Source of the DNA: a virus
Reading direction: 5' to 3' (one strand)
Virus record (IMG/VR): IMGVR_UViG_3300042880_000420
Coordinates: 45,033-109,032 of that record
Length of the DNA: 64,000 nucleotides
Shown: piece by piece, positions 30,499-35,803 of the stretch
How positions within the stretch are numbered: the first letter of the stretch is position 1
Layout: each line of letters begins with the position of its first letter
Notes under the pieces: model-generated
What the model was told of the DNA's origin: nothing
Database searches by the model: none
What the model saw: only the letters and a program-made list of their open reading frames with translations
Program-made: the position numbers and the translations under genes

Positions 30499-33400
30499 TT
30501 AAGATAAGATTCCCATATTGCGAAGTTGTGTTATTGCTTGCCCTATTGTATAGCCGTCGAAAGTATCTAAGTCAATTGAGCCATTATTTGTATAAGTTGC
30601 AGCAGCCATAGCAGTAGTTCCTTGTATAGTTGGTACAGCATTGTACAAACCAATTTTGTTATCGCCTTTTACACAAAGTACATCTCTAGAATTATTTGAA
30701 AGTTTTAAAAGCGTGTCATTTGCGTTGTTTCGACTTATAGCTTCAATAGCTCTGTAGTCAGCTGCCGATGTCAAAGTTGGAAGTATATACATACCACGTG
30801 TGATCCCATCAGCGGTTCCTGTTTGATTAATGGTTGTTGTAATTTGTATAGAATTTCTTTGCCAAGACCCTGATGTAGGAGAGTATGACCCTGCGACTGA
30901 AAGTGCTGCTAAATTACTTGCATGCCCAAGCCAATTAGCCCCTCTTATCGTTACTGTTGGATTAACACCATCTTGTACCCAAACTGTATAACCTCTATCA
31001 AATCTAGTTTCGCCGGTAGACCAAGTATATGAAAAGCCACCACCCGTAATATTCCCAAAAGATAGATTTCCATTATTAGCAACTGTAAATAAACTAGTTG
31101 GTGTAGCGTTTTGTAACAAAAATACATTCCCAGTAGATGCTGAATTTCCTTTACCATGAATAGTAGCTGTAGGAACCGAATATTCAAAGTCACCAACTGC
31201 AAACATATCACCATGAAATTTACCTGCAAAAGTTGGATTTACAGCACCTCTGTTTGTAGAAAATTCTAAAGTAGCATTTGTGGTATCGTAGTAACGACTT
31301 CTTACTCTCACAGTTAAAGCAGCTCCAAGAGTACTGTGAGTTACCAAAAATCCCATACCTGCGTAGTTAGTAGTAGCATAAGTACCACTATTTGAGGTAA
31401 GCATTAAATTATTTAGATTTCCGTTGGACACTATATAAAAAGCTCCATTATTACTATTAGCTGCGCCTGCATAAGTCGTAGCAAATGAATAAGGACTTAT
31501 ACTTGTATCTGTAGCAATTATTCTACCACTAGTACTTTCCCACGCATTATGAGTTCCTAATACTGATGTTAAAGTTGGATTATAGTAAATTCCACGTACA
31601 GTACCATTTGCTGTACCTGTTTGGTTGATGATACCTGAAACGCGCAAGCTTGTAAAATTTGCATTGCCACTTGTAGGCTGCCATATAGCATTCCCAGTAC
31701 TTACATGTAGTCCATTAATTGTTCCTGAAGTTGGATTCGAATTAGTCCAAATTGTAGCAGCAGTAACATTATCTCCTGAAACCATTACTCGACCAATTAA
31801 ACTTAAACCTTGTTCTCCTATTCCTGTTTCAATTCTCCAAGTCCTAAATCTTCCATCTGATGTAATAATAGCGACCCCCAGGGAAGAGTGATAAATATTT
31901 TGGTCATTATCTATTTTAAATATATTAGTAGGTGTACTATTTTGTACTAAAAATGCAGTGCCTGTACTAGCGCTATCACCTCTAACGTGTAAACGAGCAG
32001 ATGGAGTAGTTGAAAATCCTATACCCCAACCATTATCTCTAGAAAAAGTACCTATTGCTTGATTATTTGTAAGAACGACTATCTTATCGTAAGTTGCAAA
32101 TGAAGCTTGAAACCCTGTAGTTCTACTGCTACCTTGGTCTCCGGCTAAGTTTAAATAATTAGCTGCTTTTAGTCCTATATCACCATCCGCATATAATTTT
32201 TGAGTTGGGTTAGTAGTTCCTATACTTACATTCCCATTTTCAATAATTCGCATAGCTTCTACAGAATTTGTAGTATTATTTGAGCTAGTATGAAAACGTA
32301 TATTGGTATAACCTAAAGAGCCAATACCACCTAAGTATAAAATATTTTGCGATAGATTAATCACAGAAGTTAAGGTGTTTATAAAACCAACTGAATTAGT
32401 ATACGATTGAGTAGTAAGGTAAAATTCTTTAACCGTATTATCAGATAGTGTAGTTTGGGCTAACATGTTTCCAACTAAATGCAAAGCTTGTGAAGGTGTA
32501 GTAGTACCTATACCTACTTTTGTAGCCAAAAGGGTATCTAAAGCAAGGTTTCCTAAAGTAGTACTAATCTGGCCTTGATATATTCCCCAAGTATTTGCTG
32601 CGTGTCTGCCGAAAGCAACATCAGAACTTGCACTGTTATAAAAACCACTGCCAGAGTTACCTGCAAATATTCTACCATTACCGTTCATCCAGATATTAGC
32701 ACCAAATCCAGGACCACTACCTGATGTGCTTGAATCAGATATAAGAAGTCCAATACTTGTAGCTCCTGTATTACCAATTTTAAGTCCTTTAAATATGCTA
32801 ACACTACCACCACCTCTAAATTCAGCTTCTCCATTATTGAACTGCTCAAATAAAGTTGTAGGTGTAGAGTTTCTAAATACTACAGCAGAACCAGTACTAG
32901 CAGATGCACCTTGTACAGCTAACCTAGCCAAATCAGATGTAGTACCTATAGAAACATTACCACCACTACCAAACATTCTCATTCTCTCTACACCACCAGC
33001 CATAAGTAAGTAATTCATACCACCCATGTCGCCTGAATATGTATTAGGTGTCGAACCGCTAGTTATTCCAAATTCACCGTATGTATTCCCATTAGCTCCA
33101 ATATACCGTATCATAGTTCCAAAAGAAACATCGTTTTGTCGTATAGCTACAGGAACAGTACTTGCTCCTGTTTTTACAATATGTAATTGGTATAACGGAT
33201 TAGATGTGCCTATACCTATTCTATTAGCAAATAAATTATTAGCTCCTAAATCTACATTAGCAGTTGCACCTGTATACGGTACATATCCAGTTAAATTAGA
33301 TGTTAATGCTATAGTTCCAGCAGTATCAGGTAATGTATATATTCTATCTGCTGTATTAGTATTAGTAAAAGATGCGTTAAACGTATTCGCTACGTTTCTT

Positions 33401-33585
33401 AATAAAAATGTTGTATCTAAAAATGTTTTAGCTCCTAAATTAGTTTGTACAAAGGCTAACTTCATATCTCCTTTTGTATCAGCATATGCTTTAACTGCTT
33501 TTTGTGAAGGTACAAGTAAATCACTATCAGCAGATAATAGTGGATCAGTATCTATAGGTACCCCTCTTGTAGTTCCTTGTGCCAA
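30499..33585 (-). CDS. Long tail/head fibre protein with internal triplicated motif (1028 aa)
   Basis: The protein is 1028 aa. The N-terminal part is typical of phage fibres (LVPSQKAVKAYAD near residue 24, RIYTLPDTAGTIAL, then YVPYTGATANVDLG and IGIGTSNP). The shaft is Gly/Ser/Asn/Thr-rich. A motif of the form SASTGxxxxxxNxTPTxxF occurs three times (nt 32848-32912, 31922-31985, 31094-31150). No C-terminal S74 chaperone is seen. The start is TTG at 33583-33585. Its first codons (TTG GCA CAA GGA ACT) are nearly identical to those of the HNH gene directly upstream (ATG GCA CAA GGA ACA). The original ATG was therefore probably taken over by the inserted HNH gene. It is probably a receptor-binding fibre. 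Confidence 0.85.
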   Translation of the reverse strand: MAQGTTRGVPIDTDPLLSADSDLLVPSQKAVKAYADTKGDMKLAFVQTNLGAKTFLDTTFLLRNVANTFNASFTNTNTADRIYTLPDTAGTIALTSNLTGYVPYTGATANVDLGANNLFANRIGIGTSNPLYQLHIVKTGASTVPVAIRQNDVSFGTMIRYIGANGNTYGEFGITSGSTPNTYSGDMGGMNYLLMAGGVERMRMFGSGGNVSIGTTSDLARLAVQGASASTGSAVVFRNSTPTTLFEQFNNGEAEFRGGGSVSIFKGLKIGNTGATSIGLLISDSSTSGSGPGFGANIWMNGNGRIFAGNSGSGFYNSASSDVAFGRHAANTWGIYQGQISTTLGNLALDTLLATKVGIGTTTPSQALHLVGNMLAQTTLSDNTVKEFYLTTQSYTNSVGFINTLTSVINLSQNILYLGGIGSLGYTNIRFHTSSNNTTNSVEAMRIIENGNVSIGTTNPTQKLYADGDIGLKAANYLNLAGDQGSSRTTGFQASFATYDKIVVLTNNQAIGTFSRDNGWGIGFSTTPSARLHVRGDSASTGTAFLVQNSTPTNIFKIDNDQNIYHSSLGVAIITSDGRFRTWRIETGIGEQGLSLIGRVMVSGDNVTAATIWTNSNPTSGTINGLHVSTGNAIWQPTSGNANFTSLRVSGIINQTGTANGTVRGIYYNPTLTSVLGTHNAWESTSGRIIATDTSISPYSFATTYAGAANSNNGAFYIVSNGNLNNLMLTSNSGTYATTNYAGMGFLVTHSTLGAALTVRVRSRYYDTTNATLEFSTNRGAVNPTFAGKFHGDMFAVGDFEYSVPTATIHGKGNSASTGNVFLLQNATPTSLFTVANNGNLSFGNITGGGFSYTWSTGETRFDRGYTVWVQDGVNPTVTIRGANWLGHASNLAALSVAGSYSPTSGSWQRNSIQITTTINQTGTADGITRGMYILPTLTSAADYRAIEAISRNNANDTLLKLSNNSRDVLCVKGDNKIGLYNAVPTIQGTTAMAAATYTNNGSIDLDTFDGYTIGQAITQLRNMGILS
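33572..33584 (-). repeat. 13-bp direct repeat bounding the HNH gene, fibre copy
   Basis: The minus strand reads TGGCACAAGGAAC. The same 13-mer occurs at 34205-34217. The two copies are 633 bp apart (211 codons) and enclose the HNH gene. Confidence 0.85.
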
Positions 33586-33591
33586 AATATT

Positions 33592-34218
33592 TTAATTTAA
33601 GTTGTTAATAATCTGCTGAAATGTTGATATTAAATTTATTTCTTCGTTTCTTTTTTTTGGATGATGTTTTTTGCACAAACATATTCCATTATTTATATCA
33701 TATCTTAATTCAGGGTAATCTTTCCATGATAATATATGATGAGATTCTAATCTTCCTTCACAATCTAAATTATTAATCTTACATTTCCAATCATCTCTTT
33801 TCTTTACTGAAATACTCCATTCTCCATGTAATTGACCTCCACGTTCTTTAATATCATCTTTTAATTTTGTTCTATCTTCTATCCATTGATATGCTTTTTC
33901 TTTTGTGTATTTACCTGTTAATGTTTTAGATATTTTTTCTTTAACATGATTAGGAACAGAAAATCCTTTTCTAACTTTTCTTGATTTTGCAGTACAACTT
34001 CTAGAACAATATTTAGGATTTTTATTTGATGAAGTGTAATTATTTCCACAACAAATACAAATATATTCTTTAGTAAAATAAGCTCCTTTATTTTTTACAT
34101 TTTTGTTAGAATTACTTATTTTTTGTTTATGCTCTTCAGTTAATTTATGTCCTTTGGTATGAGTGTTTCCATTCAACCAATAATATTTTTTAATAAATTC
34201 TGCTGTTCCTTGTGCCAT
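33592..34218 (-). CDS. HNH homing endonuclease with NUMOD3-like repeats (208 aa)
   Basis: The protein is 208 aa. Two NUMOD3-type DNA-binding segments are visible: GHKLTEEHKQKISNSN (about residues 23-38) and VKEKISKTLTGKYTKEK (about residues 91-108). Between them lies a Cys4 zinc element (CICCGN...CSRSC). The C-terminal HNH core is SHHILSWKDYPELRYD, then NNGICLCKKHH. This is a free-standing homing-type nuclease that nicks DNA to spread itself. It lies between the 413-aa protein and the long fibre gene and begins with the same five residues as the fibre (MAQGT). Its stop is 6 bp before the fibre's TTG start. The insertion into the fibre's first codons is inferred from the repeat. Confidence 0.9.
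   Translation of the reverse strand: MAQGTAEFIKKYYWLNGNTHTKGHKLTEEHKQKISNSNKNVKNKGAYFTKEYICICCGNNYTSSNKNPKYCSRSCTAKSRKVRKGFSVPNHVKEKISKTLTGKYTKEKAYQWIEDRTKLKDDIKERGGQLHGEWSISVKKRDDWKCKINNLDCEGRLESHHILSWKDYPELRYDINNGICLCKKHHPKKRNEEINLISTFQQIINNLN
34205..34217 (-). repeat. 13-bp direct repeat bounding the HNH gene, HNH copy
   Basis: This is the second copy of TGGCACAAGGAAC on the minus strand. It forms codons 1-5 of the HNH gene. Confidence 0.85.
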
Positions 34219-34229
34219 GTTTTTTTTTA

Positions 34230-35471
34230 TTATCTACTTACTTCTTCCCAATCCATTGATGCAACAAGAGTATCATTAGCACCATCAGATGCTACTATTA
34301 ATGTTAACTCATAAGGTGTTGATGATAAACTATTTCTTTCTAATTGAAATTTAAAAAGTGCATCTTTTAAAATGTCTACTTGATTTTTTGATTGGTTACT
34401 TTCACTAAAAAATCCACTTCCAAGTATTCTTCCTCCTGAAAAACTAGTTCCTGTTATATTATATTCTACAGAAGAATTTGTTCCTGCACTTACCCAAGAA
34501 CCACCTGTAGTAGCTCCTGTTCCTACAAGTTGCCAATTATAATTACCTGTAGTAATTGGTAATATAGATAATGCAGAAGGAATTACTACAGCGTCTAATC
34601 TTGTAGATTTAAGACGTAAACTTATTATAGGATAAAATGTTCCTGATGTTCCTAATGTTCTTGGTGTATTAACAGGAATTCCAATAGCTTGTTGTGATCC
34701 ATTAAGTTCATACCCCCCTTCAGATAATACAGTAGAACATATTTGTTTTAATGTACTTGCCCCACTTGTAATTCCTGTATTTGTTATTTCATATCTTAAT
34801 GGTAAAGAAGCTGTAGTAATATATGTAGATGCAATTATGTTAGCATGATGAAAGTTATGACAAACATAAAAATTACCATTTATAACAAAACCTATTCTAA
34901 CTGTTCCCACTCCTAACCACTCAAGATCCATAAATAAAATCTGAGATTTTGTTAAATCAAGTGTTATTCCACTAGGACCTGTTCCATTCATAGGATCAAC
35001 ATTCCAACTTGATTGAGCAACAGGTGTATTTACTAATGCACCTGAAACTGAAGTTCTTTCAACAAAACTAACTGTACTATCATTTTGTTCTAAATAATAA
35101 CCATTAGCTGCTCCATAATATCCAATTCTTTGTCTAAGGTTAGTTTTAGCAGGGCTCATTACAAAAGTACTAAGTACTAACAAACTTTTACCAGGTTGGT
35201 ATGAAAATACTTTAAAAGTCTCTCTAACAACTTCAGAACCTGATGCTGTTGTTACAGCAAGGTCAACTAATCCTTGAGCAGAATTAAATGTTGCTGTTCC
35301 ACTTGTAGCAGTGGCTGTAGCCCACAACCCATTATCTGCATATCTATGACTAGAGTCAAACAATGTAAATGGTTCACTAACTCTTAATCTACCAAATGCA
35401 TCTATGTTAGGAGAGTTTGCATATGAGATAGCTGGACTTATTATACTATATCCTGAATAATTCTGTGCCAT
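34230..35471 (-). CDS. Virion surface/fibre-base protein (413 aa)
   Basis: The protein is 413 aa and beta-rich. The N-terminal segment DAFGRLRVSEPFTLFDSSHR (residues 25-44) is a pattern I know from structural proteins of many marine and gut phages, usually in the tail-fibre or baseplate region. The rest alternates Ser/Thr/Gly-rich strands and ends MDWEEVSR. No catalytic motif is visible. Its gene is followed by the HNH insertion and then the long fibre gene. It is likely a fibre base or decoration component. Confidence 0.75.
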   Translation of the reverse strand: MAQNYSGYSIISPAISYANSPNIDAFGRLRVSEPFTLFDSSHRYADNGLWATATATSGTATFNSAQGLVDLAVTTASGSEVVRETFKVFSYQPGKSLLVLSTFVMSPAKTNLRQRIGYYGAANGYYLEQNDSTVSFVERTSVSGALVNTPVAQSSWNVDPMNGTGPSGITLDLTKSQILFMDLEWLGVGTVRIGFVINGNFYVCHNFHHANIIASTYITTASLPLRYEITNTGITSGASTLKQICSTVLSEGGYELNGSQQAIGIPVNTPRTLGTSGTFYPIISLRLKSTRLDAVVIPSALSILPITTGNYNWQLVGTGATTGGSWVSAGTNSSVEYNITGTSFSGGRILGSGFFSESNQSKNQVDILKDALFKFQLERNSLSSTPYELTLIVASDGANDTLVASMDWEEVSR

Positions 35472-35473
35472 AA

Positions 35474-35803
35474 TTAACTAATTTCTGTACCCCAAACTTG
35501 AAATGATAGGCTACTGTTTCCTGAATAAATTCTTATTTTATCTGTAGTTGCAAGTGTTACACCTATTGTAGCAATGAATGTATCATTACCAGCTAACGTT
35601 ACATCATAGTAAAGATAGTCTTTATTAGATGTTGCTGCGCCTGCTTCTGATATAGAAATTCTAAATGTTGTTTGTGAACTTCCTCTATTACATACGGATA
35701 AAGAACTACATACAGTTGATGTAGCAGAAGGAACAGTATACAAATCTGTTTCCGTTGTTGCTGATGGACTACTTTGTCCTAATATTTTATATACGTTACC
35801 CAT
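35474..35803 (-). CDS. Small beta-sandwich virion protein (109 aa)
   Basis: The protein is 109 aa. The pattern ETDLYTVPSATSTVCSSLSV, then LAGNDTFIATIGVTL and IRIYSGNSSLSFQVWGTE is that of small decoration or fibre-tip proteins encoded next to phage fibre genes. It has no signal peptide. It sits 2 bp from the 413-aa gene. The exact place in the virion is unknown. Confidence 0.7.
   Translation of the reverse strand: MGNVYKILGQSSPSATTETDLYTVPSATSTVCSSLSVCNRGSSQTTFRISISEAGAATSNKDYLYYDVTLAGNDTFIATIGVTLATTDKIRIYSGNSSLSFQVWGTEIS

Follow-up and report, generated by a model that had tools for sequence, protein, structure and literature searches.

Organization of the locus

The locus lies on the minus strand of the window, by which we mean the whole 64 kb stretch of viral DNA that was analysed, and it comprises, in order, a virion structural gene, an A-rich leader, an HNH gene, the hexanucleotide AATATT and a putative fibre gene. 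The upstream structural gene (34230..35471) specifies a protein of 413 amino acids that matches phrog_1645 (E 4.1e-140) and represents the conserved left flank. Its stop codon is separated by the A-rich leader of 11 nt (34219..34229) from the ATG of the HNH gene (33592..34218), which is intact, encodes 208 amino acids and was identified by ORF calling coupled with PHROGs and Pfam matches. The HNH stop codon TAA (33594-33592) and the 6-nt spacer AATATT, together occupying 33586..33594, are in frame with the fibre gene and lead directly to a TTG triplet (33583..33585), the proposed substitute start codon of the interrupted gene, at which relatives that lack the HNH gene carry ATG. The interrupted gene (30499..33585) was called as an ORF of 1028 amino acids, for which a family search returned no match in PHROGs (E 0.01) or Pfam (E 0.1), and we infer that its product is a tail fibre. 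The N-terminal 36 or so amino acids (the first ~110 bases) are conserved among relatives and the remainder is variable even between close relatives. As a separate observation, the fibre start at locus L077 is 96% identical to that of the window over 113 bp, while the protein encoded upstream of it is only ~35% identical.

The initial annotation had stated that the first 13 bp of the HNH and fibre genes are identical and lie 633 bp, or 211 codons, apart, and that the fibre gene is left with TTG, six bases beyond the HNH stop, as its only start; both statements were borne out by direct reading of the sequence. The 5′ copy of TGGCACAAGGAAC forms the HNH start following the A of ATG (34205..34217), and the 3′ copy forms the fibre start following the first T of TTG (33572..33584). 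ATG is the start codon of 16 of the 17 window ORFs of at least 300 amino acids; the fibre ORF alone has TTG, which is presumably the codon at which the fibre is initiated.

The HNH protein consists of the fibre-like first codons (MAQGT), a NUMOD3 motif (residues 23-39), a cysteine-rich segment (54-75) and an HNH core (about 146-191), and thus contains both the core and the motif. It matches the HNH endonuclease family phrog_1271 (E 6.6e-14) and reaches 20.5 bits for Pfam NUMOD3 against a cut-off of 20.4, with Pfam HNH_2 and HNH falling slightly under their cut-offs. A PDB sequence search at E 1 gave no match, and an AlphaFold model built on a three-sequence alignment had a mean pLDDT of 33 and was unusable. 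Two other types of element were considered and rejected: a group I intron surrounding the HNH gene, as no Rfam intron was detected at E 1 in 33000-35600 and HNH coding sequence accounts for 627 of the 633 bp, and an intein, as a stop codon precedes the fibre and Pfam gives only NUMOD3 and HNH and no splicing domain.

Occupied and empty alleles at the fibre start

The upstream gene, when used as query, retrieved 79 loci, at 26 of which the fibre start was readable (24 empty and 2 occupied, L008 and L024); the remaining 53, being either cut or without a matching fibre N-terminus, were set aside. L008 and L024 are located in two other IMG/VR contigs and carry the same HNH gene at the same site, again ahead of TTG and with the same 6-nt spacing and frame between the HNH stop and the fibre, the window HNH protein being 93% identical to that of L008 and 91% identical to that of L024. 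The HNH core residues are identical in all three copies. An ATG start was present at 23 of the 24 empty loci (exactly ATGGCACAAGGAAC in 12 of these) and TTG at one, L020. It had been anticipated that HNH-free relatives would start with ATG GCA CAA GGA AC at this position, and two exact scans of IMG/VR found this ATG form in 22 contigs, in none of which an HNH gene lies directly in front, and the TTG form, the window's own record being excluded from that scan, in three contigs, namely those of L008, L024 and L020. The related claim, that an ATG fibre start would exist without the HNH unit, agrees with the ATG seen in relatives without the insert and the TTG seen in all three occupied contigs. 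Occupied and empty alleles therefore occur at one and the same site in related genomes (3 occupied contigs; 22 of 22 ATG contigs empty), and a Fisher test of the occupied contigs (window, L008 and L024) against the empty ones (L020 and the 22 ATG contigs) gave 0.0015, a value that is just indicative since several empty loci are near-identical and the counts are consequently not independent. At two further loci, L011 and L017, an ATG fibre start is combined with an occupied-like leader, and these alleles may be ancestral or may represent exact excisions.

The most direct view of the insert is provided by L008 and its empty relatives L004, L005 and L006, to which its upstream gene is about 95-96% identical. 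Immediately left of the insert L008 matches L006 at 393 of 400 nt and L004 at 390 of 400 nt, and to the right of the first base of the fibre gene at 102 of 110 and 107 of 110 nt, respectively, such that with flank identities of ~98% (left) and 93-97% (right) the insert is directly visible. The empty alleles read stop-TT-ATGGCACAAGG, as compared to stop, ten A-rich bases and ATGGCACAAGG-HNH-stop-AATATT-TTGGCACAAGG in L008; that is, the 10-nt A-rich leader stands in place of TT, and the resident start has lost its A. The earlier proposal of an insertion at the fibre start with duplicated first codons is supported, with one refinement. A simple target-site duplication made anew each time is not favoured because L008, when set against the empty alleles closest to it, has also gained the leader; the unit brought both a leader and its own copy of the start, which fits better with allele replacement from an occupied donor, and the start copy looks like a travelling part of the HNH gene.

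The single empty locus with TTG, L020, has no HNH gene, and its fibre start is preceded by a 19-nt leader ending in AAAACAGT. The end of this leader region matches the L024 HNH-fibre junction over 19 nt, while the leader also has an 11-nt word in common with the L024 5′ leader; the two matches overlap in AAAAC, a motif that L024 possesses at both places. The L020 junction reads like a deletion scar, as a deletion between the short AAAAC repeats would generate it. The L020 leader contains an in-frame TAA, and between it and the TTG there is no further ATG, GTG or TTG, so that the TTG is the sole candidate start; this suggests that a TTG start may be tolerated when no nuclease gene stands in front of it. 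The preservation of fibre expression proposed in the initial annotation would draw indirect support from this allele.

These observations, for which three occupied contigs form the evidence base, point to a free-standing HNH homing gene whose spread among related environmental phages would proceed through insertion where translation of a tail-fibre-like gene begins, an interpretation to which we assign a probability of roughly three in four.

Background of shared gene starts

The identity between the HNH and fibre starts extends over 13 bp in the window and in L008 and over 17 bp in L024, and the 13-mer occurs only twice in the 64 kb of the window. In 20,000 composition shuffles of the sequence around both ends (120 and 180 bp), a common 13-mer arose anywhere in 37, a test that required neither the start-codon position of both copies nor recurrence in two other contigs. 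Adjacent genes of the fetched loci were also examined for common starts of at least 9 bp (1401 pairs in one set and 297 in another). Among these pairs a nuclease shares its start with a structural gene only in the HNH-fibre cases, the hits without HNH being adjacent structural genes whose N-termini are repeated (L016, L019, L041, L046, L061, L064, L099 and L104). Neighbouring structural genes thus sometimes share their starts unaided, and part of the HNH-fibre identity could reflect this habit of the gene cluster. Two such repeated anchors are worth recording in their own right: runs of two or three consecutive putative structural genes in L041 (2276-3848), L061 and L064 share their first 19-20 bp (MDILNFISWI), and in L019 (2445-4273) and L046 (4908-6265) adjacent genes both start with MSIG(N/D)LKD.

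The same habit underlies the best surviving alternative, which we nonetheless consider unlikely, namely that the HNH gene is an ordinary intergenic free-standing one and that its N-terminal likeness to the fibre derives from ATGGCACAAGG as a favoured initiation sequence of adjacent genes, with no fibre start having been duplicated. In accordance with this, three adjacent genes of the window start with MAQ, and the upstream structural gene starts with ATGGCACAG in the window and with ATGGCACAAGGA in L016, L099 and L104, the latter having 11 bp in common with the fibre start. The HNH-fibre identity, however, exceeds these 11 bp in all three occupied contigs, and the insert is accompanied by the change from ATG to TTG.

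The duplicated-start arrangement is not general for HNH genes. The phages collection contained just 10 records with distant relatives of this HNH protein, aligned over a part of its length at no more than 38% identity, and in none of the 7 such loci examined is the HNH start shared with the next gene. A scan of genome_contigs with two peptide patterns for more distant copies returned none, and a phrog_1271 profile search of 36 records gave 4 matches in 3 records, a search that was not exhaustive because the HNH genes of the window and of L024 were themselves missed at that setting. The contig of L008 holds, at a second site (L094), a different HNH-like gene of 153 amino acids, or a fragment of one.

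Divergence and probable mobility of the HNH gene

In the three occupied phages the synonymous divergence (dS) between HNH copies is 0.14-0.24 as compared to 0.42-0.65 for the upstream gene, and nucleotide identity is 93-96% for the HNH gene, 77-83% for the upstream gene and about 50-55% for the first 600 nt of the fibre. The closest pair also differs, being L008 and L024 for the HNH gene and, by nucleotide identity, the window and L008 for the upstream gene. The HNH gene is hence more recently shared than its left flank, a comparison that involves three sequences only and a mosaic flank. Its dN/dS of about 0.12-0.16 indicates that the HNH protein is under constraint and has been kept functional.

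The upstream gene is a patchwork in which identity per 138-nt block ranges from 0.67 to 0.99, and part of the discordance could therefore stem from flank exchange around a resident HNH gene. This mosaicism, together with the small number of three known occupied contigs and the resemblance of L020 to a loss, would suit a history in which the HNH gene was long inherited in the group and the discordance was produced by exchange of flanking genes and repeated loss in place of homing. We regard such a history as quite improbable, since the empty relatives surrounding L008 (~98% identity to its left, 93-97% to its right) have TT and no leader, and a single gain in L008 is a more economical account than exact loss from every one of them. 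The L008 comparison is left intact by the mosaic flank, whereas the argument from discordance loses weight. A role of the repeat in recoding, whereby readthrough of the HNH stop or a ribosome hop between the copies would yield fibre from the HNH start, is a very poor candidate even though all three occupied contigs have the repeats in the same frame at a spacing of 633 nt, given that the common frame is by descent, that TAA is a strong stop, which counts against readthrough, and that L020 retains TTG with an in-frame TAA upstream and without HNH; the distance, moreover, is far greater than the 50-nt bypass of T4 gene 60 (PMC3014915).

Proposed mechanism

Under the homing interpretation, the mobile unit would begin with an A-rich leader, followed by a copy of the target's ATG and initial codons that continues in frame into the nuclease, and would close with a stop codon and a short tail whose terminal T converts the target's displaced ATGGCACAAGG into TTGGCACAAGG. 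Through this arrangement the nuclease would take over the initiation region of its target, and the fibre would restart at the TTG behind the HNH stop, probably by translational coupling. The nuclease is predicted to cut the still unoccupied start region in a phage infecting the same cell, following which repair from the occupied genome would copy the unit in; the flanks used would be the two conserved sequences on either side, namely the end of the upstream gene and the N-terminal part of the fibre gene. Each repeat copy in the occupied allele is missing at least one original flank, and the rear copy is minus the A of ATG, so that a recognition site extending across the start codon would no longer exist. 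Loss of the unit may follow, leaving a TTG scar as in L020.

TTG is found in 4 of 4 alleles that contain the unit or seemingly once did (window, L008, L024 and L020), and at such small divergence its persistence implies only that reversion to ATG is not strongly favoured. That TTG affords self-protection against the nuclease, and that it represents an adjusted restart, are hypotheses. Both roles would be united in a start-capture homing cassette, a possibility that we advance tentatively and hold to be rather doubtful, in which the endonuclease gene would bear the initiation region of its target and the conserved change from ATG to TTG destroys the nuclease site and also sets the restart of the fibre behind the HNH gene, coupling expression of the nuclease with that of the receptor-binding gene; if this were true, the HNH drive could also move fibre alleles between phages.

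Relation to known systems

Comparison with characterized systems reveals partial likenesses. The free-standing homing endonuclease genes mob and seg of T4 are placed between conserved phage genes, as is the HNH gene of the window, several of them being without a promoter of their own and some being coupled to or overlapping the upstream gene (PMC2988022). The overlap described for these T4 genes concerns the gene upstream, whereas for the window HNH gene, the homing of which is putative, the first codons of the downstream gene are copied and its start codon is changed. Fungal mitochondrial mORFs (atp6, atp9, cox2 and nad3) are endonuclease genes that enter with a duplicated piece of the host gene, of which a complete frame remains (PMC3630166). 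The window unit likewise combines an endonuclease gene with a duplicated piece of its target, in the form of a 13-17 bp copy that includes the start codon and is carried by the putative element. However, mORFs duplicate the end of the gene and sit behind it, the window unit being a mirror image in that it duplicates the beginning and sits in front, and they encode LAGLIDADG or GIY-YIG enzymes and not HNH. MobA, inserted at T4 genes 39/60, is an HNH gene in a phage gene whose product is kept in an unusual manner (PMC3014915, PMC2988022), yet that insertion splits the coding region, whereas the reading frame of the window fibre stays whole. The hidden HNH insertions of the ShiLan type in phage methylases are neither introns nor inteins (PMC11855218) and, as HNH homing elements in a phage gene, resemble the putative homing unit of the window; the ShiLan-type HNH is out of frame inside an open methylase gene, in contrast to the window HNH, which is read in a frame of its own and lies where the gene begins.

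Among the listings and passages covered by a literature search, with subscription papers largely outside its coverage, there was no phage homing gene that carries the initial codons of the gene that follows it. We accordingly judge the combination of a nuclease bearing the first codons of the following gene with a putative substitute start for the displaced gene to be new relative to the literature covered. Such a unit would offer a homing gene a compact entry into an apparently important structural gene, with no intron, intein or split protein, by taking the target's start and leaving a substitute. The coexistence of occupied, empty and scar-like alleles in related phages makes it possible to test how such an element arises, spreads and disappears, and the position of the site in the conserved first codons of a strongly variable gene means that the nuclease could promote exchange of putative receptor-binding genes.

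Affiliation of the phage

Two minor observations concern the phage itself. The 413-amino acid structural gene (34230-35471) exhibits 64-67% nucleotide identity over ~1 kb to T4-like cyanophages and to Puniceispirillum phage HMO-2011, a notable instance of sharing between very different phages. The relatives of the portal protein belong for the most part to uncultured gut, Bacteroides and Cellulophaga phages (22-30% identity among the matches listed), the best match among those listed being Leptolyngbya phage Lbo-JY46 at 29.8%, a pattern that presumably points to crAss-like phages.
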